Of a DNA stretch of 64,000 nt, positions 6,549 to 40,901 are shown piece by piece. Both the position numbers and the translations under genes were made by a program. The first letter of the stretch is position 1; each line of letters begins with the position of its first letter. The DNA comes from Pseudomonas lalkuanensis (GTDB lineage Bacteria; Pseudomonadota; Gammaproteobacteria; Pseudomonadales; Pseudomonadaceae): NCBI RefSeq assembly GCF_008807375.1, contig NZ_CP043311.1:4320001-4384000 (forward strand), read 5' to 3'. A model generated the notes under the pieces. It was given only the letters and a program-made list of their open reading frames with translations. It was not told where the DNA came from and did no database searches.

Positions 6549-6563
6549 GCAAAATGAGTGCCA
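6549..6563 (-). promoter_or_regulatory. Sigma-54 promoter of the APC permease
   Basis: On the minus strand the sequence reads TGGCAC-TCATT-TTGC, a perfect -24/-12 element. Transcription would begin near 6537 and give a leader of about 225 bases. Candidate activator sites lie upstream at 6638-6685. Confidence 0.7.
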
Positions 6564-6637
6564 CTCAAAATAATGTTTCGCAACACACTGTTTTATAAGG
6601 ACTTCTCAAAAAGTACACTTACCTGCTGCGGGCACCA

Positions 6638-6685
6638 TCTCAGTATTGGTACGGGTTCACGCTCAGGCCTGAGAAAGGTCTCACC
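6638..6685. promoter_or_regulatory. Putative activator sites (TCTCA-N4-TGAGA type)
   Basis: Two sites lie 75-120 bases upstream of the sigma-54 element. One is TCTCAGTATTG (6638-6648), identical over 11 bases with the site before the aldehyde dehydrogenase operon. The other contains the perfect palindrome CTCAGGCCTGAG (6662-6673) followed by AAA and TCTCACC, and is nearly identical with the site before the binding-protein gene at 33.8 kb. I infer binding by the AcoR-type activator at 35.5 kb. Confidence 0.55.
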
Positions 6686-6715
6686 CCTGCGTCTTGCGAG
6701 ACGACTCAATCGAGC

Positions 6716-6742
6716 ACAAAAAAGCCTCCCGAGGGAGGCTTT
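6716..6742 (-). terminator. Terminator of the chemoreceptor gene
   Basis: AAAGCCTCC and GGAGGCTTT pair around a CGAG loop, and on the minus strand the stem is followed by a T run. It lies 24 bases after the chemoreceptor stop codon. Confidence 0.85.
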
Positions 6743-6765
6743 ACTGATGGACAGATTGGCTCCAT

Positions 6766-8886
6766 CTACACTCTGAAGCTTCCCATAAGGCGCTGCTGCT
6801 GATTCGCCAAATCGGTTAGCGACTGACTGATTTGAGCTGAATCCTTCGATTGGGTCGCCAGTAGCTCGGTGACATCCCTAATGGCTGATACGTTGCGGTT
6901 GACCTCTTCGGACACGGCACTTTGCTCTTCAGCTGCGCTCGCAATCTGCAGGTTCATCTCACCGATCACCTCGATGGCCTTACTGATTTTCTGAAGGGCT
7001 TGCACAGCCTGGTCTACCTGCTGGACGCTGGCGTCGGCCTGGGCATGGTTTGCCTGAATCGTCAGAACTACGTTTCTAGTACCGTGCTGAAGGTTCTGGA
7101 TGACCCCCTGAATCTCCTCCACAGAATCCTGTGTCCTTTTAGCCAGATGACGAACTTCATCGGCGACAACAGCGAATCCTCGGCCGGATTCACCAGCTCG
7201 AGCAGCTTCGATGGCGGCGTTTAGTGCCAACAGATTGGTTTGCTCAGCAACGGAACGAATCACCACGAGCACCTTGCCGATCTGCTCGCTGCTCTCGGCT
7301 AACTGGCCGACCTCGAGCATCGCGAGATTCATCTCGCTCGCAAGCTTGTTGATGCTGTGGGTGGTTCGTTCAATGGTTTGTGTGCCTTCCCGCACAGCCT
7401 CATCGACATGCCGCGCCGCATCAGCAGCCATTGCGGCGTTCCGGGCGACATCTTGAGAGGTGGCACTCATCTCTTGAGCAGCTGTTGCGACCTGCTCAAT
7501 CTCCCTGAATTGCTGCTGCATCCCACCATTGGTCTCGCTAGCAATGGTCGCAGCCTGATCAGCCGTGCGCCGAGTGTTATCAACGGACTCGCTCACCTCC
7601 GAAATGATCGGCTGCAACTTGTCCAGGAAGCGGTTGAACCAACCTGCCATCTGCCCTATTTCATCGCGCCCATCATGCACCAAGCGCTTTGTGAGATCCC
7701 CCTCACCACTTGCGATGTCTTTGAGCATTTCGGCCACGTTCAAAATCGGACGGGCAATGCTTGCAGCCATGAACCAGATCAGGACCAATCCAATCATTGC
7801 CCCCACTACACCCACGATCAGTTGGGTCCGTGTCGCAGCGTTATTCGCCTCGTCGAGGATTTTGCGCATCGCCCCCACTTGAGCCATCAGAACTGAGGTC
7901 GGGACTTGAATCACTACGCTCCAATGCGGAGTACCAACAAGTGGCGAGAAAGGCGCGACGACGGTGATCTCGCCGTCCAGTTCTACGTGGCTGACAGCCT
8001 CGGCCTGACTCCGATTGTGAACCTCACCCGCGAGCTTGGGCACCGTAGCCGTCAGCGATTTACCCAGCGACTCCTTATCACCACTTCGGGCTGCCACAGC
8101 GCCATCGGAGCTGATGAAACTCATCTGAACACGACCACCGTACAGACTATTGCTCGAGGCCTGCACCACTTCCTGCAGACTGCTCAACGCGAGGTCGATG
8201 CTCATCACAGCCACCACCCGCCCATCCTCCACCAATGGGATAGAGATGGTGGACATCAAGACATCGATGCCTTGCAAGGTGGTATAGGTGTAGGGATTGA
8301 TTACACATAGTCGCTTGGAGTCCCGAGCACAGCGGTACCAGTAAGTCGACGCCTGGCCATCGTCCGCCATCTCATTCTCGGGCATGGCGTAGCTTTTCAA
8401 CTGCGTCGTCGCGTAAGAAGCAAATCGGCCTGTGTCGTTGCCTGCTCCAACTCCGAGTCCAACGAATCGGTCGTCCTGGCCATCAAGCAAATTCGGCTCA
8501 AATGCCACGCCGACACCGAGCACTCCAGGGCTCGCTGCAACCTGCTCTTGCATCATGTTGAAGATGTCCTTGCGCAGCTCTGCTGGGTCCCCTCCCCTGC
8601 TCTGCGCCTGCTTTTTCATGAAAAGGATTTGCCGCGCCAACGTCTCACCAAAGATTGCGCCTTCACTAAAGCGCTTGGCGATGGCCTGGGCCTCAGCCTC
8701 ACCTACCTTGTACAAGTGCTGCAGAGCCTGCCCCTGTAGGGCGGCTGAACTGGACTGGTCAATCGCCTGCGATATCCCCTGGATACGGAAGATCGAAACC
8801 GCCACGAGAACTGCAAGTACAGCCAGCATGCATAGTCCAGCCAGCACCGTGATTTTTGTTTTTATAGATAGCTTTGACAGGTACAT
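6766..8886 (-). CDS. Methyl-accepting chemotaxis protein with periplasmic dCache sensor (706 aa)
   Basis: A transmembrane chemoreceptor. Residues about 12-32 form the first membrane helix; about 40-330 form a large periplasmic region with double-Cache features ([48 protein letters not shown]); the second helix ([20 protein letters not shown]) follows, then a HAMP segment. The cytoplasmic signalling hairpin has the invariant [19 protein letters not shown] core near residue 565. There is no C-terminal CheR/CheB-tethering pentapeptide. AAGGAGAGAAG before the ATG is a strong ribosome-binding site. dCache receptors usually sense amino acids, amines or organic acids, which fits the neighbouring permease and catabolic genes. 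Confidence 0.93.
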
Positions 8887-9501: not shown

Positions 9502-9867
9502 TCATGCCGTTACCGCAGCCTGCAGGGCAATCTCGATGAGGATCTCGTCATCTGCCAAGTTCGCCTCAACCGTAGCGCGTGCAGGTAATGCGTCATGAGG
9601 TATCCAGGCTTCCCACACCGCATTCATCGCGTCGAAATCTCTGACGGCATGCTTGAGCCAGATCTGGGCAAACAAGATTCGGGACTTATCTGAACCGACC
9701 TCGGACAGAAGCGCCTCGAGTCGGGCCAAAACCTGTTTTGTTTGGCCAGCTAGGTCTTGGGTGATGTCTTCAGGAACCTGACCTGTGATGTAAACCGTGC
9801 CGTTGTGTACGAGCGCATGACTGAGTCGCCCGGGCAGAACCTGGAGTCGTTGAATGGACAACGCCAC
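9502..9867 (-). CDS. RidA family deaminase (121 aa)
   Basis: Small trimeric YjgF/YER057c/UK114 fold: VYITGQVPEDITQDLAGQTKQVLARLEALL and ARATVEANLADDEILIEIALQA are diagnostic. Arg97 in PARATVEA is the residue that binds the carboxylate of the 2-imino acid substrate in RidA enzymes. These proteins hydrolyse reactive enamine/imine intermediates to keto acids. It is the second gene of an operon after the enolase-superfamily enzyme (75-base gap), whose dehydration products could be its substrate. The subgroup cannot be assigned. Confidence 0.88.
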   Translation of the reverse strand: MALSIQRLQVLPGRLSHALVHNGTVYITGQVPEDITQDLAGQTKQVLARLEALLSEVGSDKSRILFAQIWLKHAVRDFDAMNAVWEAWIPHDALPARATVEANLADDEILIEIALQAAVTA

Positions 9868-9942: not shown

Positions 9943-11103
9943 TCAGGCTTTGCACTCGGCCCACAGATAGGGCGCAACATTCTTCTGGTTCAAAGTCACA
10001 CCCAGACCCACGTCGGACGGCACGACCAGCTTGCCACCCTTGATGCGGTCTTCGAGCGGGTTCTCCAGCACCTGGACATACTTCGGCGAATCTGGGAAGT
10101 ACGGGTAGATCTCCAGGGTCATGAAGTTCGGCATGGTCACGCTCACCTGCAGGGTGGCCGCGGTGCACAGCATGCTTGCGCAGTTATGAGGTGCGACACG
10201 CATGTTGTAAGCCTCGGCCATTGCCGCGATCTTCTTGGTCTCGGACAGGCCGCCGGTGTTGCCGACATCCGGCTGGACAATGTCGACCACCTGCTTCTCG
10301 ACCAGGCGACGGAAACCCTGGCGGGTATACAGACGTTCGCCTGCAGCCATGGAGGTGTTGGTGGCACCAGCGATCTTGGCCATTGCACCGACATCGAAGG
10401 CATCGCAAGGCTCTTCAATCCAGGTGATACCCAGATCCTCATAGCGTTTGATCAAGCGGATGCTTTCATCAGTGGTAAGGCCGCCGCTCAGGTCGATGTA
10501 GACCTCAACCTCAGAACCCGCCACTTCAACAAGCTTCTTCACGCGCTGATAGGCCAGCTCCATGAATTCGCGATCATGGGCACGACGGGTCACATGACGC
10601 AGACGACCTTTCTCGTCCTGGGTCGCCAGGGGATAGCACTTCAGTGCGCGATAGCCATCGGCGATCGGTCGCTCAGCGGCATGGGCCCAGGAGTCGGCAT
10701 CCACGCAATGGTAGTTCCAGCCGTTGGCGTAGACCGGGACCTCATCGAAGACCTTGCCGCCGAAGAACTCGTATACCGGCAGATTCGTGGCCTTGCCCTT
10801 GATATCCCACAGCGCCTGCTCAATAGCGCTGATGCCGGAGAAGACGATGGCGCCACCGCCCTTGGCCCAGAAGGAATGGTCGTACATCTCGGTGAAGAGT
10901 TGCTCAATGCGGAACGGGTCTTTACCGATGATGAGGCGCTCGCAGAGGTCCTTGATCATCCCTGCTGCAGCGGTCGCACCCAGACCGTAGGCGATGGCAG
11001 CTTCGCCAATGCCGGTGATGCCTTCGTCGGTGGTGAGTTCGACGATGATCGGCTTGACGTAACCGCTCTCGACCAGGAAGACCTTTGCAGAAGTAATTTT
11101 CAT
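9943..11103 (-). CDS. Mandelate racemase/muconate lactonizing (enolase superfamily) enzyme (386 aa)
   Basis: Probably an acid-sugar or hydroxy-acid dehydratase. The capping domain opens with KITSAKVFLVESG. The barrel carries three metal ligands: Asp in VYIDLSGG, Glu in WIEEP and Glu in AAGERLYTR. VQPDVGNTGG and the His in APHNCAS are typical active-site loops. The position where many relatives have KxK reads ALKCYP, so only one lysine is present. The ATG at 11103 is chosen because ACGGAG lies a few bases upstream; a longer frame to 11160 has no such signal. First gene of an operon with ridA, divergent from a GntR regulator that probably controls it. Exact substrate unknown. Confidence 0.88.
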   Translation of the reverse strand: MKITSAKVFLVESGYVKPIIVELTTDEGITGIGEAAIAYGLGATAAAGMIKDLCERLIIGKDPFRIEQLFTEMYDHSFWAKGGGAIVFSGISAIEQALWDIKGKATNLPVYEFFGGKVFDEVPVYANGWNYHCVDADSWAHAAERPIADGYRALKCYPLATQDEKGRLRHVTRRAHDREFMELAYQRVKKLVEVAGSEVEVYIDLSGGLTTDESIRLIKRYEDLGITWIEEPCDAFDVGAMAKIAGATNTSMAAGERLYTRQGFRRLVEKQVVDIVQPDVGNTGGLSETKKIAAMAEAYNMRVAPHNCASMLCTAATLQVSVTMPNFMTLEIYPYFPDSPKYVQVLENPLEDRIKGGKLVVPSDVGLGVTLNQKNVAPYLWAECKA

Positions 11104-11373
11104 GTTGAGTACTCCGTAGTTCCTCAGCTGACGCATTGATTTGGTGCCGGATATCGCCATCGGCAGCCCGTTGGTGTGTAATGAAGATCAGGGAGTAACA
11201 CTCTCATTGTCAACAATCCAAAAACCACGCAAAGCACTGATTATTCTATGTATTCATCTCTTATTTGAGTCTCATTCTTGCGATTGTGAACAGGGAATAA
11301 CCGCCCTCCACCAAAGAGTGAGACAGAACTGAAAAAGCTGAGAATTCCCCTCTCAAGAACTTGCAAATATTTC
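11104..11373. promoter_or_regulatory. Divergent promoter region with GntR-type operator
   Basis: ATTGTCAACAAT (11206-11217) is an ATTGT/ACAAT inverted repeat that resembles operators of FCD-type GntR proteins, placed between the dehydratase and the gntR gene. A further repeat TGAGA-N7-TCTCA occurs around 11339-11355, similar in half-sites to the sigma-54 regulon sites, but no sigma-54 element was found here. Confidence 0.45.
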
Positions 11374-12168
11374 ATGTTAAATACACCACAAGATCACTCA
11401 GTTTCGGCGGACCCGAATGAGTTTCAGCAGCAAGGATCGAAAAGAACGTCGGGCAGGCCGAATCAAATGAGCAAGCAATCCATCGAAAATCAGACCTTGG
11501 CTTCTAAGCGTCAGCCGGCTGATGAACAGGCAGTACAGGTGCTTCGGAAATCAGTCCTACAGGCAGAGCTTGAACCGGGATCGCGCGTGACTGAGAACGG
11601 GTTGGCCGACCTGTTCGCGCTATCTCGTGGCGCTATCCGATCGGCACTTCACCACCTCTCCCAAGAAGGGCTGTTCTTGAAGATTCCGTACTGTGGTTGG
11701 GCAGTCATGCCGATATCATCGGCAGATGCCTGGGAGCTCTATACGTTGAGAGCGAACCTGGAAATGTTGGCAGCTTCGCTGGCCAGCCAGAACATGGACA
11801 GCAGCAGCTCCACCGAGCTGCTTCGGGCATTCGAAGAACTGGCCAATGCCTGCCGTAAACAGGATCGAACACAAGTAGCCGAGGCAGACTTCAAGCTGCA
11901 CAAAACGATCGTGACCCTTTCGCGACACAAGCGCCTGCAGCAGCAATATCGCATCGTTCAGCAGCAGATCCGGGTCTATATCGCGTCCAGTGATGCCCTC
12001 ACGCCTGACTTCCAGACATTCATCGATCACCACCGCCCGATCGTGGACGCCATTCTGGCTAGAGATGCTGACCTGGCCGCAAAGCTCTCCTCAGAGCACA
12101 ACCTCTCGGAAGGCAAGAAGTTGCATCGCCATTTACTGACATTGGAGTCCGCCCGGATCCAGGCGTAA
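11374..12168 (+). CDS. GntR/FCD transcriptional regulator
   Basis: An N-terminal winged helix (residues about 50-115: VLRKSVLQAELEPGSRVTENGLADLFALSRGAIRSALHHLSQEGLF) and a C-terminal all-helical FCD effector domain with the metal/ligand motif DFKLHKTIV and a later His in ARDADLAAKLSSEH. Cytoplasmic dimeric DNA-binding regulator, usually a repressor released by an organic acid. The start is uncertain: ATG 11374 gives 264 residues with a disordered lead, ATG 11467 gives 233 residues, and neither has a strong ribosome-binding site. The divergent dehydratase-ridA operon and the palindrome between them are its likely target. Confidence 0.88.
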   Translation: MLNTPQDHSVSADPNEFQQQGSKRTSGRPNQMSKQSIENQTLASKRQPADEQAVQVLRKSVLQAELEPGSRVTENGLADLFALSRGAIRSALHHLSQEGLFLKIPYCGWAVMPISSADAWELYTLRANLEMLAASLASQNMDSSSSTELLRAFEELANACRKQDRTQVAEADFKLHKTIVTLSRHKRLQQQYRIVQQQIRVYIASSDALTPDFQTFIDHHRPIVDAILARDADLAAKLSSEHNLSEGKKLHRHLLTLESARIQA

Positions 12169-12208: not shown

Positions 12209-13441
12209 TCAGAAAGGGATTAGGGGGAACTCTGAGTAAACTGGATACTTCGCGCACATCCGCGTGATGCGACGCGTCACGAACGCCTCGACCTCAATGC
12301 CTCCGGGATTGTCTAGGATGTCGCAGATCCATCCAGCAACCTCTGCACAGTGGGACGGTCCCAAGCCTCGTGTCGTGATAGCGGTAGTACCCAATCGCAG
12401 ATAGTCGGGTTCAGCACCGTGACCAGGCCAGCGACCAGACTCCATACATATCCCGCTTCGGCGAAGCACCTGCTCCACCCCTACCGACTGAGGCGGTCGC
12501 CCGGCCAATCCAACCAATACCGGGCCGCCCTCCTCCAAACACGAACGCAGCTCGTACCCTCGACAAGAAAACGCACCCGCGACGGCACGGACGTTTTCCA
12601 GCACCTGGACCTGATAACTCTGAAAAGATGGGGACATCGCCTCCTTGAGACACAAAGCTTTCGCAGCCAAGTTACCGGAAGAGATGCGCACGATAGGGTC
12701 CCGCTCAACTGCCACAGCATTGAGCATCTGCTGCAACGACCTGTCTGCCTTGGCGAGAATCATCCCCCCTTCAGGGCCGCGCAACGTGGAACCAGTCGAT
12801 GCGATGGCGAGATCCACGAAAGGCACAGGGCTCAAGCAAAGGCCCGCCGCTACCATTCCGGCGATAAGTGTGAAGTCCACCACCAGATAGGCCCTGGCTT
12901 TGTCCGCTATCGCGCGTAGCCTGAAGTAGTCGATTCTCCGTCCAATGCCTGCGGCCTTTACCACCAGCAGCCTCGGTCTCAGCAACTGCACCCTTCGCTC
13001 TATAACGTCGAGATCAAGGCCGGAGGGATCGACCTCATCATGATGGGAACAATTGAAGGCTGCCCTGGCCGTGACAAATTTGCCGGCTTGGAGGGCATGA
13101 CCATTGCCGACCCAGCCGACACTGAGAATGCCATCCCCCATGTCCAGCAGAGCGTCGCAAATGGATGCAATTGCCTGCTCTACAGACGCGGGTGTCACGC
13201 AGGCGTAATCAGCATTGAACAATTGTCGAGCACGATCTGCAGCCAGCGCTTCGAACTCGCATCTCCCCATGAGAGATAATCCGCTATCGAAGCTTCCCCC
13301 AAGTGCATCCAGGATCTGGGGGCTGACATGGTTGGCAGAGGCACGTAGATCCAGACAGCTTTCGACGCGCCACGCGGCATCACTCAAGGCAGTGAACAGA
13401 TCCTTGTCATAGGACCGGAGTCGATTGAATCTGCTTTGCAT
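12209..13441 (-). CDS. Serine hydroxymethyltransferase-like protein lacking the PLP lysine (410 aa)
   Basis: Aligns by eye over its length with the true GlyA at 20.9 kb: VVDFTLIAGMVAAGL, STLRGPEGG, LRLGTTAITTRGL and the C-terminal WICDIL. Key active-site residues are replaced: the Schiff-base lysine (Lys229 in the GlyA here, THKTLRG) is Ser218 (TGSTLRG, codon 12788-12790), the cofactor-stacking DMAH motif is DFTL, and the loop carrying the substrate Tyr and Glu is shortened. The frame is intact for 410 residues, so it seems maintained rather than decaying. It cannot form the usual internal aldimine. It ends a sigma-54-driven operon with an aldehyde dehydrogenase and a flavin reductase. The ATG at 13441 is chosen for a GAGGG site 5 bases upstream; a TTG at 13471 is less likely. 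Role unknown. Confidence 0.8.
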   Translation of the reverse strand: MQSRFNRLRSYDKDLFTALSDAAWRVESCLDLRASANHVSPQILDALGGSFDSGLSLMGRCEFEALAADRARQLFNADYACVTPASVEQAIASICDALLDMGDGILSVGWVGNGHALQAGKFVTARAAFNCSHHDEVDPSGLDLDVIERRVQLLRPRLLVVKAAGIGRRIDYFRLRAIADKARAYLVVDFTLIAGMVAAGLCLSPVPFVDLAIASTGSTLRGPEGGMILAKADRSLQQMLNAVAVERDPIVRISSGNLAAKALCLKEAMSPSFQSYQVQVLENVRAVAGAFSCRGYELRSCLEEGGPVLVGLAGRPPQSVGVEQVLRRSGICMESGRWPGHGAEPDYLRLGTTAITTRGLGPSHCAEVAGWICDILDNPGGIEVEAFVTRRITRMCAKYPVYSEFPLIPF

Positions 13442-13523
13442 ACTGCCCTCTGGTATTGCGTACCCGTCCAAGGTGCCTCGACTCGCGCTTAGCTACCTCG
13501 GATATTCATTCCTACTCAGATCG

Positions 13524-13562: not shown

Positions 13563-14057
13563 TCAGCTGGCGATATTCAGCTCCACGGCTTGATGCAGCC
13601 CACGCCCTTTCCACAGCAGGCAGTGATTGCGCTCGGGGTCGCTGAGGTTGATCGACTCGATGATGCCCACGAAGATGGTGTGAGAAAAACCATCGAAGCA
13701 ATTGCCGATCTTGCAGACCATTCCGGCCGGAGCGTCCTTCAGGATCGGCACGGCAAAGTCTTCCAGATCCCAATCGGACTCGGAGAAGCGGTCAGCCCCT
13801 TTGCTCTTGGTGAAGCGGTCCACCACGTGCGCCTGCAGCGGGGACAACAGGTTCACACCGAAATAGCCGTGGTTGAGAATCGCATCGTGAGCCGAAGCCG
13901 ACTTGTTGATGCACACAATGACGGACGGCGGTTCAGCGGACAGACTGCAGACCGCAGTCGCAATCAAGCCGACCGGCTTGTCGCCCTCGAAACTGGTAAT
14001 GGCATTCACTGCGCCGGCAAACCGGCCCATTGCTTCACGAAATTCCTGAGTCAACAT
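13563..14057 (-). CDS. Flavin reductase of a two-component monooxygenase (164 aa)
   Basis: A flavin-reductase-like (HpaC/NtaB type) protein: FREAMGRFAGAVNAITS, ATAVCSLSAEPPSVIVCIN and FGVNLLSPLQ are family signatures of the split-barrel FMN-binding fold. It would reduce FMN or FAD with NAD(P)H and pass free reduced flavin to an oxygenase. The only matching oxygenase in the window is the luciferase-like monooxygenase at 33.4 kb, whose promoter has the same sigma-54 type. The ATG at 14057 has GAGAGG 7 bases upstream; an in-frame extension lacks a signal. Second gene of the operon, 64 bases after the aldehyde dehydrogenase. Confidence 0.88.
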   Translation of the reverse strand: MLTQEFREAMGRFAGAVNAITSFEGDKPVGLIATAVCSLSAEPPSVIVCINKSASAHDAILNHGYFGVNLLSPLQAHVVDRFTKSKGADRFSESDWDLEDFAVPILKDAPAGMVCKIGNCFDGFSHTIFVGIIESINLSDPERNHCLLWKGRGLHQAVELNIAS

Positions 14058-14121
14058 GGCAGATACCTCTCTGGTTTGAAGGGCTCGGCCCGAGCAGCAC
14101 ATGCCACCAGGGCCGAGAGCG

Positions 14122-15684: not shown

Positions 15685-15699
15685 GCAAGTTCGGTGCCA
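15685..15699 (-). promoter_or_regulatory. Sigma-54 promoter of the aldehyde dehydrogenase operon
   Basis: The minus strand reads TGGCAC-CGAAC-TTGC, a perfect -24/-12 element. The predicted start is near 15673, giving a leader of about 115 bases before the ATG at 15558. Confidence 0.8.
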
Positions 15700-15748: not shown

Positions 15749-15825
15749 ATTCTCAGTATTGAGATGAGCCCGGAGCTGCTTTTTCTCTTTTTCTCAAGCT
15801 TTGTGAAAGTCAGGCATTCTCAATT
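15749..15825. promoter_or_regulatory. Putative activator sites upstream of the aldehyde dehydrogenase operon
   Basis: TCTCAGTATTGAGA (15751-15764) is an inverted repeat with a 4-base spacer, 50 bases upstream of the sigma-54 element. Two further TTCTCA boxes follow near 15791 and 15817. The first 11 bases are repeated exactly upstream of the APC permease (6638-6648). Confidence 0.6.
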
Positions 15826-16917: not shown

Positions 16918-16930
16918 GCGTAAGCCCCAT

Positions 16931-16963
16931 GAAAAAAGAAAGGCGGGGATTGCCCCCCGCCTT
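16931..16963 (-). terminator. Terminator or attenuator between gcvT and lipA
   Basis: AAGGCGGGG and CCCCGCCTT pair around a 6-base loop; on the minus strand the stem is followed by CTTTTTTC. It sits about 15 bases before lipA, so it may lower lipA expression relative to the upstream genes. Confidence 0.7.
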
Positions 16964-17010
16964 GAATCCCCGGGCCGGCAAAGTAGGCTTTCGGGGCAGA
17001 CGAGGATCGA

Positions 17011-18135: not shown

Positions 18136-18208
18136 GTAATTCTCTCCAGAAGGTGCGCCACGCGCACCAGTGTTGATTCGTTGATACGCACGGCACCGTA
18201 CGACGGCT

Positions 18209-19585
<1,377 letters not shown>

Positions 19586-19613
19586 TTCTCGACTCCCGTG
19601 AGCCCTTCGGTGA

Positions 19614-20867: not shown

Positions 20868-20927
20868 GTTCGTATCCTTTAGATTCGGGGCGGAGGTATG
20901 GCCCGGAAGAACTCCGGGCCATAGGCG

Positions 20928-23795: not shown

Positions 23796-23808
23796 GGCAT
23801 TCCCCGGC

Positions 23809-32013: not shown

Positions 32014-32293
32014 AGAGCACCCCTTCCACGTTAAAGCCATAGCCAACCGCCCCAACTAGGGCAGCAACTTCATTTTTGGCAGTCGCAGGAAACTTCCGAA
32101 TCAACGGTGGCGAAGCACAATCGCATCAGAAGTGAAGGGCAGATTATGGGAACTGAATTAATCATGAACATGCAAGGTTTCTCCTATGTCAGACGCAAAA
32201 AACTTGGGGGCGTCCTTTTCTTGTTTAGTAAGGAGTTCTTTTTTGCAGATAACCGGCATGGGCCTCTTTCCGGTAAGGCCCATGCCGTACCAC
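32014..32293 (-). other. Intergenic region between monooxygenase and transporter genes, with hairpin
   Basis: A 12-bp stem around 32258-32289 (GGCATGGGCCT and its complement) sits directly after the monooxygenase stop. It has no T run on the minus strand, so it may trim or partly stop the transcript. No second sigma-54 element was seen in the rest of the gap, which suggests read-through from the monooxygenase promoter or an unrecognised promoter. Confidence 0.45.
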
Positions 32294-33400: not shown

Positions 33401-33558
33401 AGTGACTCCTTTATTGTTTACCGGCTGGTGTCTGCCCGAGCTTCTGGCAAAACCAGTGAATAGCCACGCATAACACGAAGAGGGACCTGGGTACCGCTAG
33501 GGCTCATCGGCCAGCAGCTTCACTGGTTCCAAAATCGCTAGATGCACTTCCGGAATAG

Positions 33559-33573
33559 CAAGGAGGATGCCAA
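33559..33573 (-). promoter_or_regulatory. Sigma-54 promoter of the monooxygenase gene
   Basis: The minus strand reads TGGCAT-CCTCC-TTGC, one base from the perfect consensus in a tolerated position. Predicted start near 33547, leader about 145 bases to the ATG at 33400. Confidence 0.72.
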
Positions 33574-33861: not shown

Positions 33862-33876
33862 TGGCATTGAAATTGC
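33862..33876 (+). promoter_or_regulatory. Sigma-54 promoter of the binding-protein gene
   Basis: TGGCAT-TGAAA-TTGC on the plus strand. Predicted start near 33888, leader about 110 bases to the ATG at 33999. Confidence 0.72.
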
Positions 33877-33998: not shown

Positions 33999-35159
33999 AT
34001 GTCAAAAGATCAAAGCTTTTCGCGCGAATCGTCCATTCAGAATCTTTTGAATACGCCCATCGGGCGTCGGAAATTAATGCTGGGGGCCGCAGCTGCTGCT
34101 GCCGGTGCTACCCTGGGTCGCTGGATTCCCAACGCCGAAGCGGCAGTGGGTGGACGGCTGGACATCATGGCTTGGGAAGGCTACACGCTGCAGGGCGAAG
34201 CCACGGATTGGATCAAGCAGAACGGAATCAACGTCAACGCCAGCATCATGAGCAACCAGGATGATGTGACCGCCAAGCTTATGGGCGGGGGCGTACGCCT
34301 TGATCTGGCTGAGTACTCCAACGGCTACAACGAGCTGTACAAGCAACTGAACCAGCTGAGGCCGATCGATACGTCCCGCATCCCGAACTACAACAAAGCG
34401 GACATCTACACCAACTTCTACGACGGCGAGATGTGGTACTGGGATGGACAACGGTTCGCCATTCCGTGGACCTGGGGCGTCGACACCATCGTGTACGACC
34501 CCAAATCGACCACTGAGCCCGTCGAAAGCTTCAAGGACCTTCTCCGCCCCGAATTCAAGGGCAAGCTTACCTTCCTCGACAACCCTTTGACCGTCTGGCC
34601 TCTGGTCGCCCGAATCACCGGCTTCGGAGACAAATTCCCCAACGTCACCGCCGACGAGCTTCAGGAAATATTCGAACTTATGCAGCCGTATCGCGAGCAA
34701 TGCCGCACGTTCGCCGGCAGCAACGGTGACGTGGTATCGCTCTTCGTCGCGAAAGAAATTTCGGCATGCTTCTGCACCTGGACTGCAGCCACGCTGGAAA
34801 CGGCAAAGCAGGGAGTCGACACCAAGTACGTATTCCCCAAAGAAGGTGGGGCAGTCTGGGCGGACGCGTGGTTCATCCCCGCATCGGCGGAAAACATCGA
34901 TACTGCGCTCGAGTTCATCAACCAGGCGCTGGATCCGCAGGTACAGGCCAAAATGAGCAAAGCCGTCAGCTCCGCAGTCGTGAACCGGCGCGCCGTACCG
35001 CTGATGGAACCATCCGTGCGCGCACTGTTCGACTATGACAACGTCGACAGCTTCCTGAAGCAATCCCCGCTGAAGGGGCAGCCTCCCCGTACCTCGGAAC
35101 AATACGCAACTTACGATGACTGGCTCCAGGCATGGTCGTCGTTCCGGGCAGGCTTCTAA
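33999..35159 (+). CDS. Tat-exported PotD-type substrate-binding protein (386 aa)
   Basis: Periplasmic binding protein for the PotABC-type transporter on the other strand. The N-terminus has a twin-arginine signal: Arg23-Arg24-Lys, then LMLGAAAAAAGATLG and a cleavage-like AEA at about residue 47. The mature part (DIMAWEGYTLQGEATDW, FCTWTAATLETAKQG, WADAWFIPASAENIDTALEFIN) fits the spermidine/putrescine-binding family. Tat export implies folding before export. It has its own sigma-54 promoter, probably for higher expression than the membrane parts. Confidence 0.9.
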   Translation: MSKDQSFSRESSIQNLLNTPIGRRKLMLGAAAAAAGATLGRWIPNAEAAVGGRLDIMAWEGYTLQGEATDWIKQNGINVNASIMSNQDDVTAKLMGGGVRLDLAEYSNGYNELYKQLNQLRPIDTSRIPNYNKADIYTNFYDGEMWYWDGQRFAIPWTWGVDTIVYDPKSTTEPVESFKDLLRPEFKGKLTFLDNPLTVWPLVARITGFGDKFPNVTADELQEIFELMQPYREQCRTFAGSNGDVVSLFVAKEISACFCTWTAATLETAKQGVDTKYVFPKEGGAVWADAWFIPASAENIDTALEFINQALDPQVQAKMSKAVSSAVVNRRAVPLMEPSVRALFDYDNVDSFLKQSPLKGQPPRTSEQYATYDDWLQAWSSFRAGF

Positions 35160-35522
35160 TCATCACCTTCGTCGGCGCAAGCTGAATCCCAGCTGCGTGC
35201 TTTGCATGAGACTCCGGTTCCGAGCGGAACCGGAGTCTTCACAAGGCTTAAAATGCCCAGTACAAAAGGGTTGGATGGGCACCATCCAAGGACTAGGCTG
35301 TCTCTTTAAGACAAGCTTTTAGTCCTTGGTAACTACGAAAGCATCAGCGGATAGGTCAGCGCCGAGAACACTGAGACAGCGCCCTCTGAAATCCCCATTA
35401 CTAGAGCGGCCTCTCCAGCACCGCCGCTGGTCTCTCAAACGTTTCGATCAAAGGGAATTGGCAAGCTCCTTGCCTGAGCAAGGGTGTACTGCTGTTTTCG
35501 ATTGGCTGCAGGATGGGACTCT
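35160..35522. other. Gap between binding protein and sigma-54 activator
   Basis: Contains a strong hairpin after the binding-protein gene and then about 280 bases upstream of the activator with no clear promoter motif or coding frame. Confidence 0.5.
35210..35242 (+). terminator. Terminator of the binding-protein gene
   Basis: A perfect 12-bp stem (GACTCCGGTTCC with its complement) and a GAGC loop, followed by TTC. The T run is weak but the position, 50 bases after the stop, is right. Confidence 0.7.
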
Positions 35523-37514
35523 ATGAATATTCACGAGCACAACTCACGCATTCTGGCCGGCGTCGAACAGCCTGCGTCCGATGTCGCCCCCTCCGCTTCC
35601 AAAGGCCTAATCGTTCGAGACAGCCATCAAGAATCCTGGCGCCGCTGTGTTGAACAGCACCAATTAGACCCCAAGAGTAGAGCCACCATTCCCCAGGTTG
35701 GCGAGAACCAACTGCGCCAACTCCAGGACGAGTTCGGACACCGGATATTTTCCTACGCCCTGGAAGAGCTCAACAGCCTCATGTCCATGGTGAACGAAGT
35801 AGGCTACTCAGCCAGCCTGGCAAACTCGCAAGGGGTGATCATTGCAGAGAGCGTCAAGCCATCCCAAGAGTACTACTGCGAGAGCGATAGGCTAGGCAGC
35901 ATATGGCTTGAGGAGATCGGCGGGACCAACGGTATTGGCACATCGATTATCGAACAGCGACCAGTAGCGGTGTTCAAAGACGATCATTTCTATTACGACT
36001 TCGCAGCGCAGGCCTGTGTCGCGGCGCCCTTCTATGACGCTATGGGAAATCTGCAAGGTGTCCTCAACCTCACCACCTGCAACCCGTACCTGGACATCAA
36101 TGCGCACCATATCGTCTACAAACTTGCCTGCCAGAGTTCGGTCCAGCTGGAGGAGCGGCTGTTTCTCGAGCATTTCCAGGATTTCATGTCTCTTCGTTTT
36201 CGGAATGTCAGCACGCAAGCATTCCTGATTGCCTACGACGAACTAGGGGTGATTCGTGGCGCTAGCATGGCGATGCGCAAACGCTTTGCTCTGAGCCAAA
36301 TGGATATGGGGCGACGGTTTATTTGGGAGATCTTCGACCTGCACAAGTCGGGCGCCGCGATAGATCAGCTGCGTAGCTCCGACCAAGTCAGGATGTTGGA
36401 CTCGGGAGAAGTAGTTTCGATCATCCGCTTTGATGCGCGCCGCCATGAGCGTAATGGCCGGCCGAATCTGTACATTCCTGATCGGGGCGAGCCCGTCGTC
36501 TCACGGACAGATAAGCCCACCGCCCTGGACGCGTGTGCGGGTAATGACAGGCAGATGAAGGAAAATGTCCGACTCGTACGGAAGATAATGAACAAGGGTC
36601 TGCCGATCATGCTGCTCGGCGAAACCGGCGTTGGTAAAGACACGCTGGCGAAAGCTATCCACCAGGAAAGTGATCGACGGGATGGCCCCTTCGTTGCCTT
36701 CAACTGCGCCGCCGTTCCTGAATCCTTGATCGACAGCGAACTGTTCGGCTATGGCAAAGGTGCCTTCACTGGCGCCAACAGGGAAGGCAACCAGGGCCGC
36801 CTGGTAGAGGCTCATGGCGGCACGCTGTTCCTGGATGAAATTGGCGACATGCCGTTGGTACTGCAAACCAGGCTACTCCGCGTGCTTGAGTCGGGAGAAG
36901 TCTCTCCGCTCGGTTCTGGCAAACCCCGACATGTCGATTTGCAGGTTATTGCTGCGACGAACCAACGTTTGCACGACAAGGTGGCAGAGGGTTCCTTCCG
37001 CGAGGACCTGTTCTTCCGGCTGGCGGGCGTAATTGTGAACCTGCCCCCCCTGCGCCAACGGGAAGACAAGGACTTCATTATCAAAGCCTTGCTGGCCGAT
37101 CTGTGCCGTAAATCCGACGCAGTCCAGCTGACCAAGGCAGCCGAGGAAATGTTGCTGTCTTACTCTTGGCCGGGCAACGTCCGAGAGATGAAGCACGTGC
37201 TACACCGCGCCAGTCTGCTCTGTGATGACGGCGTGATCGACGCCAAGGACATCTCGCTGCCATTCCAGCGCCACGAATCAACGCCGCCAACGGACAGGCT
37301 GCGACTCCCGAGCCCAAGTGCTTACGAAGAGGCTTCTGATCGATTTGAGTCACCCTCTGTCGCCGCCAAAATGGCGGTCGCGGAGGCAGAAGGAAAGGTC
37401 ATTGCGGAAGCGATGGCAGCCAATGATGGCAACGTCGAGGAGGCGGCGAAAACCCTCGGAATGAGTCGTGCAACGCTCTACCGTAAGCTGAAGAAATACG
37501 GCATCAAGAGCTAG
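35523..37514 (+). CDS. AcoR-type sigma-54-dependent activator (663 aa)
   Basis: Likely master activator of the regulon in this window. N-terminal AcoR-like sensory region with GAF (residues about 30-310: SHQESWRRCVEQHQLDP, GGTNGIGTS), AAA+ domain with Walker A GETGVGKD, an intact sigma-54 contact loop GAFTGA, and Walker B TLFLDEIGD; the C-terminal Fis-type HTH is EEAAKTLGMSRATLYRKLKKYG. The ATG at 35523 matches the family start; an upstream in-frame start at 35484 adds 13 unrelated residues. It lies between the divergent sigma-54 region and the next sigma-54 operon. Members of this group respond to small alcohols, ketones or amines. Confidence 0.92.
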   Translation: MNIHEHNSRILAGVEQPASDVAPSASKGLIVRDSHQESWRRCVEQHQLDPKSRATIPQVGENQLRQLQDEFGHRIFSYALEELNSLMSMVNEVGYSASLANSQGVIIAESVKPSQEYYCESDRLGSIWLEEIGGTNGIGTSIIEQRPVAVFKDDHFYYDFAAQACVAAPFYDAMGNLQGVLNLTTCNPYLDINAHHIVYKLACQSSVQLEERLFLEHFQDFMSLRFRNVSTQAFLIAYDELGVIRGASMAMRKRFALSQMDMGRRFIWEIFDLHKSGAAIDQLRSSDQVRMLDSGEVVSIIRFDARRHERNGRPNLYIPDRGEPVVSRTDKPTALDACAGNDRQMKENVRLVRKIMNKGLPIMLLGETGVGKDTLAKAIHQESDRRDGPFVAFNCAAVPESLIDSELFGYGKGAFTGANREGNQGRLVEAHGGTLFLDEIGDMPLVLQTRLLRVLESGEVSPLGSGKPRHVDLQVIAATNQRLHDKVAEGSFREDLFFRLAGVIVNLPPLRQREDKDFIIKALLADLCRKSDAVQLTKAAEEMLLSYSWPGNVREMKHVLHRASLLCDDGVIDAKDISLPFQRHESTPPTDRLRLPSPSAYEEASDRFESPSVAAKMAVAEAEGKVIAEAMAANDGNVEEAAKTLGMSRATLYRKLKKYGIKS

Positions 37515-37577: not shown

Positions 37578-37735
37578 GCTCATTTTCAGCCCCGCCCTCG
37601 TGTCCGTTTATCCCAACTCGTTGCTACCGCGCCAAGTGGTTTCAAATCTGATCTTTATCATCTCAACCCTGATACGCCCTCACACAAAGCACAATCAAAC
37701 CTAGCAATATCAGTGGCTTAAGTGAAAAAATACGA

Positions 37736-37750
37736 TGGCACACCTCTTGC
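37736..37750 (+). promoter_or_regulatory. Sigma-54 promoter of the hydroxyacid dehydrogenase-MFS-ribB operon
   Basis: TGGCAC-ACCTC-TTGC, a perfect -24/-12 element, with a predicted start near 37762 and a short leader to the ATG at 37799. TCTCA-ACCC-TGATA, a weaker version of the shared inverted repeat, lies about 75 bases upstream (near 37660). Confidence 0.8.
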
Positions 37751-37798
37751 TCATCTATCTCCAACCCTCGCCCACCATAGCTATTGGAGACTGGAAAG

Positions 37799-38743
37799 AT
37801 GCAGCGTACGAAAGTCCTCGTACTGAACAGTCGCGCTTACGACTACGCCTCGCTGCTGAAATCGCAAGCGCCTTGGATTGAGCCAGTGCCAGTTGAAGAG
37901 CATGCCACCGTGCCCTCTTCCAAACTCCTGCAATGCAAGATCTGGTTTGGCGAGCCGAACATTGCGGCAGTCCTTCTGCAGAAGGGTTTCAAGCCGGAAT
38001 GGCTGCAGCTCACTTGGGCGGGAATCAACAGGCTGATGCCGAGCGACCTGCCCAAAGACTATCTCCTGACCCGAGCTGTTGGTGTGTACGGCCAGGTCAT
38101 GGCGGAGTACGTGCTGTCTTACCTGTTGGCCAACGAGCAGCAACTGCAATACCGCAGGGACGAGCAAAGCAGATTCCATTGGTCGCCAAGCAAGCCGGGG
38201 ACCCTTCGAGGGAAGAACGTGCTTATCGTAGGCGCTGGCAGCATCGGTACAGAAATTGCCCGATTCATTCAACCATTCGGCGGCCGGTTAGTGGGTGTGG
38301 CCAACCATCAGCGACCGATCCCGCCTTTCGAACATGTGTATACCCTTAGTGAACTTCCTCAGGCGGTGGCATCGGCCGACTACATCATCAACGTCCTTCC
38401 CGATACGCCGTGCACCAGAGACGTGTACTCGGCAGCTCTTTTTGAAAATGTGAAGCGCGGGGCGTTCTTCATCAACATCGGTCGCGGCACTTCAGTGGTT
38501 GATCACGACCTGATCGTAGCCGTGGAGTCTGGTCAGCTTTCCGGCGCGGTGCTGGACGTCTTTCGCAAAGAGCCTCTTCCCCAGACCCACCAGTTCTGGA
38601 ACACGAAAAACATCGAGGTCACTCCCCATGTCGCCGGTCCAGAGATTCCTGAGCTGATGGTTCAGATGTTCCTGGACAACCTGTCTCGCTTCCAGAGTGG
38701 AGAGAAGCTTGATGGCCTGGTCGACTTCAACGCCGGTTACTGA
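37799..38743 (+). CDS. D-2-hydroxyacid dehydrogenase (314 aa)
   Basis: NAD(P)H-binding motif VGAGSIGTEIARF, catalytic Arg in NIGRGTSVVD and His in TPHVAGPE place it among glyoxylate/hydroxypyruvate-reductase-like enzymes (GhrA type). It would interconvert a 2-keto acid and a D-2-hydroxy acid, for example glyoxylate/glycolate or hydroxypyruvate/glycerate, products expected from glycine or serine chemistry. The ATG at 37799 has GGAAAG 4 bases upstream and is preferred to TTG 37784. First gene of a sigma-54 operon. Confidence 0.88.
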   Translation: MQRTKVLVLNSRAYDYASLLKSQAPWIEPVPVEEHATVPSSKLLQCKIWFGEPNIAAVLLQKGFKPEWLQLTWAGINRLMPSDLPKDYLLTRAVGVYGQVMAEYVLSYLLANEQQLQYRRDEQSRFHWSPSKPGTLRGKNVLIVGAGSIGTEIARFIQPFGGRLVGVANHQRPIPPFEHVYTLSELPQAVASADYIINVLPDTPCTRDVYSAALFENVKRGAFFINIGRGTSVVDHDLIVAVESGQLSGAVLDVFRKEPLPQTHQFWNTKNIEVTPHVAGPEIPELMVQMFLDNLSRFQSGEKLDGLVDFNAGY

Positions 38744-38841
38744 GCAATTTTTAGGCAATAGCCCAGACTTATACGAGACGAGGCCCCCACGGCTTTGATC
38801 GTCAGTTTCACCCGTAGAACGAGAACAAGAGAGAAAGCTCC

Positions 38842-40185
38842 ATGATTAGCAAGACAACGGTCATTGCACCAACCCCGTCGATGATCGCGCGGGCCTTCGT
38901 CGTCTGCTGGATAGCATTGTTCGCGGCAGGCTTCGCCATGATGCTCAAGCTTTGCCTGTCTGGGACGCTCAAGGCCGTGTTCTTTGATACCACCTCGCCC
39001 CTGACATCCGCCGCGATGGTTGGAAGCATCATGGGGATCACCTACCTTGGGTTCGCCATCTGCAACTCCCTGCTCCCTCCGTTCATCGACGCACTGAACA
39101 TCAAGCGAGTCCTGTTTGTCGGCCTGCTGATCTTCAACGCAGGCATAGCAGTCATGATCACCGCCGTTCCTGGCTCGGAAAGCGCTTATCAGGTGCTTTG
39201 GACTGGTGCTCTTCTGCACGGTATCGGCTGGGGTTGCATCGAATCAGTAGTCAACCCGGTCGTACCTTCCCTCTATCCGCACGACAAGGCAGCCAAGCTG
39301 AACCGCCTGCACACCAGTTGGCCGCTCGGCTGGATTCTTGCCGGCCTGCTCTCCATCACTCTGGAAAAGTACGAGTTCGGCTGGGACTACATGTTTGCCC
39401 TGGCCTTCGTGCCTGCAACGATCGCGCTGATCATGATGTTCTTCGTTCAGTTCCCGCCGACCGAACGGGTCACGAACGGCGTCAGCTTCAAGGGGATGTG
39501 GAAAGAGGTTGCGCTAAAGCCCGGCATCTTTGTCCTTGTAGGGGTGATGTTCCTGGCCTTGGCCTGTGAGGTCGTGCCTCAGAACTGGCTGGATATCGTT
39601 GTTGGCCAGACATCTGGAATCAAGGGAACTTGGCTTCTGATCTATGTGGCTATTGCCTACTTTTTCGCGCGCAGCATTGCCGAATATGTCTTGAAGAAAG
39701 TGCATGCGGTTACCATCCTGATCTTCGCTTGCCTCGCCATCTCATTGGCCTTGATTGGCCTGGCGCATTCACACAGCACAGTCCAGACGCTCCTCGCCGC
39801 GGCTCTTCTCGGTGTTGGTGGATCCCTCCTCTGGCCCAACATGCTGGCCGTTGCATCCGAACGCTACCCAAATACCGGCGCCCTTGGCATCGGCATGCTT
39901 TGCGCTGCTGGCATGGCCTCAGGCTACGTATTCGTGCCTTGGGTTGGCGGACTTTATGACGGTTTCAAGATTGAAGCCGCGGGCGGCGCCGAGGCATTTA
40001 AGGCGCTGGTTCCGGACTCGGCGGAGTGGCTGAAAGTCAACGCCTATGCAGCCGTGAAATCGTTTGAGCTATTCGCTGTGCTTCCGCTGGTACTTGCTCT
40101 CTACTTCTTCGTCGATCACAGGCTCGTTGTCAGAAAAAAGTCTAAAGGCAACACCGTTTGCCACAGCAACTTTGCCGGCCAATGA
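38842..40185 (+). CDS. MFS transporter (447 aa)
   Basis: Twelve predicted membrane segments; the central loop includes PPTERVTNGVSFKGMWKEV and the second half resembles sugar/organic-acid MFS members (GIGMLCAAGMASGYVFVPWVGGLYDG). Import or export of an intermediate is possible. Second gene of the sigma-54 operon, 98 bases after the dehydrogenase. Confidence 0.86.
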   Translation: MISKTTVIAPTPSMIARAFVVCWIALFAAGFAMMLKLCLSGTLKAVFFDTTSPLTSAAMVGSIMGITYLGFAICNSLLPPFIDALNIKRVLFVGLLIFNAGIAVMITAVPGSESAYQVLWTGALLHGIGWGCIESVVNPVVPSLYPHDKAAKLNRLHTSWPLGWILAGLLSITLEKYEFGWDYMFALAFVPATIALIMMFFVQFPPTERVTNGVSFKGMWKEVALKPGIFVLVGVMFLALACEVVPQNWLDIVVGQTSGIKGTWLLIYVAIAYFFARSIAEYVLKKVHAVTILIFACLAISLALIGLAHSHSTVQTLLAAALLGVGGSLLWPNMLAVASERYPNTGALGIGMLCAAGMASGYVFVPWVGGLYDGFKIEAAGGAEAFKALVPDSAEWLKVNAYAAVKSFELFAVLPLVLALYFFVDHRLVVRKKSKGNTVCHSNFAGQ

Positions 40186-40244
40186 GGCTCTCCAGGACAG
40201 GCCTCTCCGGCGGGGCCTCTCCAGTCAACATCAAGGTGTGCGTT

Positions 40245-40901
40245 ATGAACCATCACAACAACTTCAATGATTTTCCCCGTTTGGCCGCTGCTATCGCAGC
40301 CTATCGCTGTGGCAAACCCGTTCTGCTCATGGACGACGATGATCGCGAAGACGAATGCGACATCGTGGCCGCCGCAGAAAACCTTTCGGTGGAAACCATG
40401 ACGATGATGATTCGTGATGGCAGCGGTATCGTGTGCCTGTGCCTGGATGAGCAGACAGTTGAAATGCTGCGCCTCAAGCCGATGGTGCCCGTAAACAAGT
40501 CCCGCCATTCGACCGCCTTCACGGTGACCATTGAGGCTGCAGAGGGCGTATCGACTGGCGTTTCGTCTGCGGATCGAGTCACGACTATCCAAGCGGCACT
40601 GAACTCCACGCCTGACATTGTTCGGATTGTTAGCCCCGGGCATGTCTTCCCGCTGTGCGCTCGAGACGGCGGGGTCCTGGTCAGACGTGGTCATACCGAG
40701 GGAGCCGTAGATATCGCCATCCTCGCTGGACAGCGCCCGGCTGCGGTCATCTGCGAACTGATGAACCCGGATGGAACGATGGCCAAGGGTGAGCAGATCC
40801 GGGAATACGCGAAGCGCTACGACCTCCCGATCCTGACGATCGATGAAATCGCCCGGTACCGCAGTCTCAAGGAAGAAAGCTTGCTGGAAGCGATTGCTTG
40901 A
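40245..40901 (+). CDS. ribB: 3,4-dihydroxy-2-butanone-4-phosphate synthase (218 aa)
   Basis: Stand-alone RibB that turns ribulose 5-phosphate into the four-carbon riboflavin precursor. The metal/acid cluster DDDDREDECDIVAAAE and the loop RDGSGIVCLCLDE are intact, followed by RHSTAFTVTIEA and GHTEGAVDIAILAG. Length equals the monofunctional enzyme, with no GTP cyclohydrolase II half. The ATG at 40245 has AAGGTG 9 bases upstream. Its place in a catabolic sigma-54 operon suggests that it raises flavin supply for the flavoenzymes of the same regulon. A housekeeping ribBA or ribB probably exists elsewhere. Confidence 0.93.
   Translation: MNHHNNFNDFPRLAAAIAAYRCGKPVLLMDDDDREDECDIVAAAENLSVETMTMMIRDGSGIVCLCLDEQTVEMLRLKPMVPVNKSRHSTAFTVTIEAAEGVSTGVSSADRVTTIQAALNSTPDIVRIVSPGHVFPLCARDGGVLVRRGHTEGAVDIAILAGQRPAAVICELMNPDGTMAKGEQIREYAKRYDLPILTIDEIARYRSLKEESLLEAIA

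Follow-up and report, generated by a model that had tools for sequence, protein, structure and literature searches.

The stretch analysed here, 64,000 nt of Pseudomonas lalkuanensis contig NZ_CP043311.1 (the window; all coordinates are positions within it), contains the following genes:

4729-6312, minus strand: APC-superfamily permease (NCBIfam and Pfam matches to amino acid permeases)
6766-8886, minus: chemoreceptor (MCP with PDC sensor domain; Pfam)
9502-9867, minus: RidA-family protein (imine deaminase family), matching RidA of the A. cucumeris cluster at 64% identity over 9520-9861
9943-11160, minus: mandelate racemase/enolase-superfamily dehydratase-like protein (family matches)
11374-12168, plus: GntR/FCD regulator, divergent from the dehydratase (family matches)
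12209-13471, minus: SHMT-like protein (alignment; SHMT fold)
13563-14102, minus: flavin reductase, RutF/HpaC type
14122-15558, minus: aldehyde dehydrogenase, SSADH/ketoglutaric-semialdehyde type (family matches)
15955-24186, minus: gcvH-gcvP-glyA-sdaA-gcvT-lipA operon (NCBIfam families above cut-offs)
24565-26082, minus: GcsR/TyrR-like sigma-54 activator with GAFSGA, encoded beside gcvH
26132-27559, minus: FAD-dependent oxidase of the DAO family (amine or amino acid; family matches)
27560-29230, minus: GMC (choline-dehydrogenase-like) oxidoreductase (family matches)
29227-32055, minus: PotA/PotC/PotB-like ABC transporter genes (profile matches)
32294-33400, minus: luciferase-like flavin monooxygenase (Bac_luciferase domain, 146.3 bits)
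33999-35159, plus: PotF-like periplasmic binding protein (profile matches)
35523-37514, plus: AcoR-type sigma-54 activator (GAF, AAA+ with GAFTGA, Fis HTH)
37799-38743, plus: D-2-hydroxyacid dehydrogenase family protein (GhrA among the best models)
38842-40185, plus: MFS-type transporter (weak matches to MFS efflux models)
40158-40901, plus: RibB, 3,4-dihydroxy-2-butanone-4-phosphate synthase (TIGR00506 above cut-off)

The family matches of the importers and flavin enzymes bear out the proposal of a preliminary description of this DNA that the genes may serve transport plus flavin-dependent oxidation. That description also placed an SHMT-like gene in the aldehyde dehydrogenase-flavin reductase operon; the protein has the SHMT fold but lacks catalytic residues: in the alignment serine replaces the PLP-binding lysine of TTTTHK and the active-site loop (13 residues) is absent. 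With the catalytic lysine missing, the protein was rejected as the intact methylserine hydroxymethyltransferase by which a TRIS cluster would be recognized.

A scan for the -24/-12 pattern TGGCAY-N5-TTGC, which contains the GG and GC dinucleotides at the usual spacing, gave six exact matches in the window (distances run from element start to start codon):

6549-6563, minus: before the APC permease, 251 bp
15685-15699, minus: before the aldehyde dehydrogenase operon, 141 bp
24249-24263, minus: before gcvH, 77 bp
33558-33572, minus: before the monooxygenase, 172 bp
33862-33876, plus: before the binding protein, 137 bp
37736-37750, plus: before the hydroxyacid dehydrogenase operon, 63 bp

Five of these had been described before as near-perfect; all five are exact and have the named genes downstream on the right strands, and the only correction concerns the monooxygenase element, which starts at 33558 and not at 33559. 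The sixth, at 24249-24263 on the minus strand, is absent from the earlier list. Genome-wide, the exact pattern occurs 53 times in 6.06 Mb (7 times for the reversed control pattern), the expectation for the 31.2 kb that hold the six elements is 0.27, and when 53 sites were placed at random 20,000 times, such a cluster arose anywhere in the genome in 9 cases. Chance is thus a very poor explanation for six exact elements in 31 kb. With up to one mismatch the enrichment is mild (19 matches in the window, 12.0 expected, 19 reached in 4 of 100 shuffles). No sigma-54 site was found here for the dehydratase/RidA pair, upstream of the GntR/FCD regulator or in the 315 bp searched upstream of the chemoreceptor.

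Enhancer-like sites lie upstream of all six elements: the palindrome TCTCA-N4-TGAGA at five and a GcsR-like site at the sixth, the gcvH promoter, where the palindrome is absent. The palindrome sites are:

6661-6674: one mismatch, 111 bp upstream of the APC permease element
15751-15764: exact, 65 bp upstream of the aldehyde dehydrogenase operon element, the sole exact copy in the 6.06-Mb genome
33645-33807: five palindrome-like sites between the divergent monooxygenase and binding-protein promoters, one with one mismatch (33755) and four with two
37661-37674: one mismatch, 75 bp upstream of the hydroxyacid dehydrogenase element

A possible promoter of the AcoR-type activator gene itself (35459) has an inexact element, and the palindrome is absent there. 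With at most one mismatch, the palindrome is paired with an exact -24/-12 element only in this island; these are five promoter-site pairs in the genome, formed by four sites of which one is common to two promoters, against 0.07 expected, a window count that is not independent because the palindrome was first spotted there by eye. The palindrome alone, with one mismatch, is not strongly enriched (35 places genome-wide, 24 for the reversed control). Thus, it is the pairing of element and palindrome, not the palindrome as such, that stands out in this genome.

Counts in relatives are independent of that first sighting. In seven relative clusters 23 of 34 exact elements are accompanied by a palindrome of no more than one mismatch (23 of 35 without the range limits, which were set by hand), where 500 shuffle sets gave a mean of 0.30 and a largest value of 2; the exact palindrome accompanies 13 of 34 (shuffle mean 0.008, largest 1). 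It stands before the corresponding genes in P. lini, P. alliivorans, Burkholderia, Mesorhizobium, Agrobacterium and Ensifer, and across ten genomes or replicons 17 of the 21 exact copies lie inside or beside the island. Between the window and JM0905a, none of the 40 arm positions of four sites has changed and 7 of the 16 spacer positions have. At this threshold the palindrome is missing from 11 of the 34 exact elements in the relative clusters and from all five in A. larrymoorei; among those 11, the monooxygenase and hydroxyacid dehydrogenase promoters of P. lini and the monooxygenase promoter of P. alliivorans have two-mismatch sites only. The recurrence of the palindrome before the same genes supports a single AcoR-type regulon with an operator, and the earlier proposal of one regulon under one activator gains from a palindrome that is common to five promoters and conserved in relatives.

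The AcoR-type activator has the architecture of its namesakes (Pfam GAF, 24.9 bits with a cut-off of 22.4; Sigma54_activat, 215; HTH_8, 55.3). Its putative regulon differs from theirs in that acetoin dehydrogenase genes are absent among the identified island genes. The preliminary description was right about an AcoR-type activator with an intact GAFTGA; a second sigma-54 activator, absent from that description, is encoded at 24565-26082. The top NCBIfam model of this protein is TyrR (439.6 bits, under the curated cut-off of 576), and the genome encodes two paralogues of it, at 71% and 79% identity, each next to another gcv operon. The arrangement resembles GcsR/gcs2 of Pseudomonas aeruginosa, in which a TyrR-like activator likewise lies beside a sigma-54-dependent gcvH-gcvP-glyA-sdaA-gcvT operon (PMC4894688). 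It differs in that the genome has three gcsR-gcv loci, of which the window copy lies inside a catabolic island and has lipA at the operon end. The scan gave one clear GcsR-like site, with two mismatches, at 24343 (80 bp upstream of the gcvH element), whereas PAO1 is described as having three before gcvH (TGTAACG-N4-CGTTCCG; PMC4894688). A weaker second GcsR-like site before gcvH was seen by eye only. The gcvH promoter here would belong to the GcsR-type activator, apparently as a circuit of its own. The counterpart of this operon in P. lini and P. alliivorans is preceded by the AcoR-type palindrome, and for this reason glycine is probably a product of the pathway. The earlier suggestion that the products enter metabolism at the level of glycine and serine agrees with this and with the presence of a glycine-cleavage/serine operon in the island.

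Monooxygenase, flavin reductase, aldehyde dehydrogenase, GMC oxidoreductase and activator are present in all nine relative clusters compared, which supports co-occurrence of the gene set. RibB is present in eight; the remaining cluster has RibA, RibH and RibF. The regulon had been called dispersed, a description that is right only in part: in P. lini and P. alliivorans nearly the whole set is contiguous. The APC permease, also taken for a member, has promoter and palindrome in the window but was found in only four of the nine clusters, with 77-79% identical copies in P. lini, P. alliivorans and Burkholderia. A 56% identical full-length copy of the chemoreceptor adjoins the P. lini cluster. Plasmids carry clusters in rhizobia and in agrobacteria of the hairy-root or tumour-inducing kind. 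Within the family, occurrence is patchy (2 of 398 genomes in one draw and 1 of 398 in each of two others, with the genome on which the draw was centred counted in).

The closest solved relative of the monooxygenase, by both sequence and structure, is 3,6-diketocamphane 1,6-monooxygenase, a type II Baeyer-Villiger enzyme of the CAM plasmid (29% identity over the structural alignment). The diketocamphane enzyme works with a separate flavin reductase; here flavin reductase and RibB both appear to belong to the regulon. EDTA and NTA monooxygenase systems likewise combine a luciferase-like monooxygenase with a flavin reductase, and give glyoxylate-level products; in a comparison of folds only, their monooxygenases lie at a far greater structural distance. 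The enzyme appears more like the diketocamphane monooxygenases than the EDTA/NTA N-dealkylases, which makes the alkylated-amine chemistry of the preliminary description only one option. Luciferase-type monooxygenases use freely diffusing FMNH2, and in bacterial lux operons ribB is co-expressed with the luciferase-type enzyme. RibB in the regulon fits flavin supply, in this case within a catabolic sigma-54 regulon.

Combining these data, we consider it probable that the locus is a horizontally spread catabolic island in which one AcoR-type activator, the palindrome and RpoN drive degradation of a nitrogen-containing compound. In this model, (i) the activator would sense a small nitrogen-containing compound via its GAF-containing N-terminal part, bind the palindrome and act with RpoN on the island promoters, (ii) the APC and Pot-type ABC importers, the GMC dehydrogenase, the FMNH2-dependent monooxygenase with its flavin reductase, the FAD oxidase, and the aldehyde and hydroxyacid dehydrogenases would be switched on, with RibB co-induced because a monooxygenase of this class needs extra flavin, and (iii) breakdown would yield glycine and/or glyoxylate and C3 units, the glycine being burned by the glycine-cleavage operon under its own GcsR-type activator. 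A hydroxylated amine or amino alcohol of plant or rhizosphere origin fits best as substrate; substrate and reaction order are read solely from family resemblance. In a more speculative reading, an undescribed pathway that we regard as rather unlikely, the GMC enzyme might convert a hydroxylated plant amine or alkaloid to an amino ketone, which the type II Baeyer-Villiger-like monooxygenase would open to a glycine ester or lactone; the island operon would burn the glycine, flavin biosynthesis would be part of the regulon, and TCTCA-N4-TGAGA would have travelled with the genes across Alpha-, Beta- and Gammaproteobacteria, including rhizobial and agrobacterial plasmids. As the preliminary description had it, no described pathway with this gene set, and no published account of the island, was found in the literature searched.

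Other substrates are conceivable. The monooxygenase could N-dealkylate an alkylated amine or amino alcohol in the manner of the EDTA/NTA enzymes, with glyoxylate and amines giving glycine; the Pot-type and APC importers, the GhrA-like reductase, an FAD oxidase remotely similar to glycine and sarcosine oxidases, and the malate synthase and D-amino-acid dehydrogenase of the Mesorhizobium clusters are consistent with this, and we regard it as possible though unlikely. Equally doubtful is a nitrogen-bearing, opine- or Amadori-like sugar or sugar acid, of which dehydratase and aldehyde dehydrogenase would take the sugar-acid half, and oxidase and glycine genes the amino half. The dehydratase occurs in seven of nine relative clusters (85% identity in P. 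lini and P. alliivorans, 53-54% in Mesorhizobium, A. cucumeris and Ensifer), the aldehyde dehydrogenase is close to ketoglutaric semialdehyde dehydrogenase, and the plasmid locations point the same way. However, the Burkholderia and A. larrymoorei stretches compared gave no dehydratase, here it has no recognizable sigma-54 site, and in the stretches compared no kinase or aldolase shared among the clusters caught the eye. A route like that for TRIS or 2-hydroxymethylserine, in which GMC and aldehyde dehydrogenase would produce an alpha-hydroxymethyl amino acid for cleavage by the SHMT-like protein, is very improbable: Pseudomonas TRIS clusters share an importer, a choline-dehydrogenase-like enzyme, an aldehyde dehydrogenase and an SHMT-type protein with the island, but the main text of the TRIS paper names no monooxygenase (PMC10848231), and the SHMT-type protein here is without PLP lysine and active-site loop. 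That the -24/-12 elements are fortuitous neighbours under unrelated activators, as two activators and a seemingly separate gcvH circuit could suggest, is hardly credible given a conserved palindrome common to five promoters here and in other bacterial classes.

The preferred reading, a catabolic island under one AcoR-type activator, makes a loosely drawn regulon open to test: a single activator and a single operator sequence would govern five promoters, and nine relatives share the core genes. Conservation of the putative operator across bacterial classes makes the regulon searchable by DNA pattern, and the two wirings of the glycine-cleavage operon, by AcoR-type palindrome or by GcsR paralogue, offer a clean natural comparison. 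Identification of the substrate would put to the test whether recruitment of riboflavin genes goes with every use of a luciferase-type monooxygenase in catabolism, and would extend by one pathway the diet of rhizobia, agrobacteria and pseudomonads in the surroundings of plants.

The preliminary description had placed five TGGCAY-N5-TTGC elements in the window and read the genes behind them as one sigma-54 regulon. All five elements are exact and lie at the positions and on the strands assigned to them, and a sixth exact -24/-12 element is present at 24249-24263 on the minus strand. The 6.06-Mb genome holds 53 exact matches versus 7 for the reversed control pattern, six of them fall inside 31.2 kb where 0.27 are expected, and 9 of 20,000 random placements yielded such a six-element cluster anywhere in the genome. 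Because allowing one mismatch gives a slight enrichment (19 matches in the window versus 12.0 expected), the claim of sigma-54 clustering rests on the exact sites. The gene names given in the preliminary description are consistent with family searches, which also add genes, and the gene set with the six elements, here called the island, reads as follows:

Minus strand, by rising coordinate, first half: APC permease, chemoreceptor, RidA, enolase-superfamily dehydratase, SHMT-like protein, flavin reductase, aldehyde dehydrogenase
Minus strand, continuing: lipA, gcvT, sdaA, glyA, gcvP, gcvH, GcsR/TyrR-like activator
Minus strand, last: FAD oxidase, GMC enzyme, PotA/C/B-like genes, luciferase-like monooxygenase
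Plus strand: GntR gene (11374-12168), PotF-like protein, AcoR-type activator, hydroxyacid dehydrogenase, MFS-type transporter, RibB

The RidA gene was identified through comparison with relatives. Upstream of the dehydratase, the GntR gene and the chemoreceptor of the window, a sigma-54 site was looked for and none was found. A near-match, TGGCAAGCTCCTTGCC, lies at 35459-35474, 64 bp ahead of the AcoR-type activator gene and without the palindrome described below; it may be a sigma-54 promoter for the activator itself. In the SHMT paralogue at 12209-13471 the PLP lysine is replaced by Ser and the active-site loop is absent, and the gene is open and 92% conserved in Pseudomonas sp. JM0905a, a close relative of the window's strain; the protein is possibly a pseudo-enzyme with another role. 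At the gathering threshold Rfam gave zero matches in the window, so neither a glycine nor an FMN riboswitch scores above it. A second, G+C-richer catabolic block at 46901-55494 contains a GABA-type aminotransferase, a GhrA-like reductase, a tartrate dehydrogenase, a succinate-semialdehyde dehydrogenase and a chemoreceptor.

Reading of the upstream regions in the window revealed a palindrome, TCTCA-N4-TGAGA, that precedes every sigma-54 promoter except that of gcvH. With at most one mismatch it occurs at 35 places in the genome versus 24 for its reversed control; requiring a distance of 20-260 bp to one of the 53 -24/-12 elements leaves 5 pairs from 4 sites (0.07 expected), all of which fall in the island. 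Because the palindrome was first seen in the window, it was tested in relatives not used for its discovery, i.e. in seven clusters from P. lini, P. alliivorans, Burkholderia sp. Ac-20379, two Mesorhizobium, A. cucumeris and Ensifer, with JM0905a excluded for its closeness to the window. Among the 34 exact -24/-12 elements tested, 23 come with a palindrome of at most one mismatch, compared with a mean of 0.30 and a maximum of 2 over 500 shuffle sets, and 13 come with an exact copy (mean 0.008, maximum 1); the ranges were set by hand, and dropping them gives 23 of 35. In ten genomes or replicons, 17 of 21 exact copies lie in or beside the island, and the reversed control has 3 places in nine of these ten. 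JM0905a carries the palindrome at five of six elements, the sixth being the gcvH element. In the comparison of JM0905a with the window, the arms of four homologous sites differ at 0 of 40 positions and their spacers at 7 of 16, with 82-91% identity over the whole promoter regions.

The evidence on this candidate operator is not uniform. A. larrymoorei, which is left out of the 34-element test, has the palindrome with at most one mismatch at none of its five exact -24/-12 elements. Moreover, 11 of the 34 elements fail the test. Three of these, at the monooxygenase and hydroxyacid dehydrogenase genes of P. lini and at the monooxygenase gene of P. alliivorans, are accompanied by sites with two mismatches only. 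Such failures suggest either a looser operator at some promoters or too strict a test.

The core of the gene set co-occurs in other genomes. Nine relative clusters were compared, four from genome loci and five from plasmids, and a second A. larrymoorei plasmid was not counted since it repeats the first. All nine contain the monooxygenase, the flavin reductase, the aldehyde dehydrogenase (at an identity of only 37% in A. larrymoorei), the GMC enzyme and the AcoR-type activator. Eight contain the FAD oxidase, eight RibB and eight a member of the hydroxyacid dehydrogenase family, this last at 29-31% identity in five cases; A. cucumeris, the one cluster without RibB, has RibA, RibH and RibF. The dehydratase is found in seven, RidA and the Pot transporter with PotF in six each, and the APC permease in four. 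In P. lini and P. alliivorans almost the whole set is contiguous from the dehydratase through the APC permease, adjoined in P. lini by a chemoreceptor; their SHMT-family gene is a different paralogue, and no GcsR, GntR gene or RidA was seen in these two clusters. The GAFTGA motif of the activator is kept in the window, in eight aligned relatives and in JM0905a. In Phaeobacter (L030:16517-18391), an activator-like protein adjoining a related monooxygenase (47%), flavin reductase and ribB has lost GAFTGA and, therefore, probably no longer works with sigma-54. An ORF for an LRAT-domain protein adjoins the activator in P. lini (L032:8970-9530).

The monooxygenase alone is not diagnostic of the gene set; six monooxygenase loci (59-63% identity), two of them on cut contigs, are without other core genes in the stretches compared. 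Among 47 genome loci, four (L031, L032, L033 and L048) lie in full clusters after neighbouring stretches were added, the Acidocella locus has a partial set, and many of the remaining loci are short. With the GMC protein as query against plasmids, the five best records (71-76% identity) all also carry the monooxygenase, and at 60-64% there are also records without it in the stretch read; the FAD oxidase as query likewise gave Paraburkholderia and Sulfitobacter records without it in the stretch read. Plasmids of S. meliloti Rm41 (pRM41A), S. chiapasense and A. tumefaciens (L129, L131 and L133) carry a different conserved cluster with two GMC enzymes, a class III aminotransferase, hydantoinase/oxoprolinase genes, an NTF2-like protein, a fumarylacetoacetate-hydrolase-like protein and a MurR-type regulator. 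In draws of 398 genomes, scored from the best few first-look candidates per genome, a close monooxygenase was found in two genomes of the window's family (its own and one other) and in one each in Burkholderia's family and P. lini's genus, this one being in both draws the genome at the centre. The monooxygenase is not confined to these genomes, since one protein cluster at 84% identity to it represents 41 sequences on 31 contigs. A transfer boundary could not be set from flanking genes because each of the two flanks tested belongs to the accessory genes, occurring in 4 of 18 genus genomes.

The clusters of P. lini and P. alliivorans include a gcvH-gcvP-glyA-sdaA-gcvT-lipA operon behind a -24/-12 element with the palindrome, in one case with one mismatch at 129 bp and in the other exact at 204 bp. 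The gcv operon of the window is without palindrome; a GcsR-like site lies 80 bp upstream of its -24/-12 element, and the operon comes with a GcsR paralogue of its own. It is one of three gcsR-gcv loci in the genome, each with its own gcsR (G000:C1 2613078-2615948, 4340931-4343825 and 4538752-4541619), and a further gcvP lies at G000:C1 5814513. In P. aeruginosa, GcsR responds to glycine by activating the gcv operon (PMC4894688). In the Mesorhizobium clusters malate synthase adjoins a D-amino-acid dehydrogenase, and the A. larrymoorei cluster contains a serine ammonia-lyase and a glycerate kinase. From the gcv wiring and these genes we infer that the products would be glycine, glyoxylate or C3 compounds.

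Searches with solved structures and folds, for which L070 (stop codon), L072 and L073 were left out of the monooxygenase alignment to be folded, returned families and no substrate; the 50 entries listed include no trigonelline or pyridine monooxygenase, an absence that excludes nothing. Judged from titles and the opening lines of abstracts, none of the papers found by a full-text search covering few subscription journals describes the gene set. The accessible part of one report places a luciferase-like monooxygenase and a flavin reductase of Mesorhizobium huakuii, with neighbouring locus numbers, in a nitrogen-fixation network and gives no pathway (PMC3973600). Full-text searches found no paper for the palindrome as text or for trigonelline (at least four of five terms required), and two for calystegine catabolism. 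The alkylated amine proposed in the preliminary description stands as one of several readings of the substrate. The proposal of one regulon appears right in outline, now with a candidate operator, and the pathway can be called real insofar as its gene set is conserved and has a putative cis-regulatory site in common.
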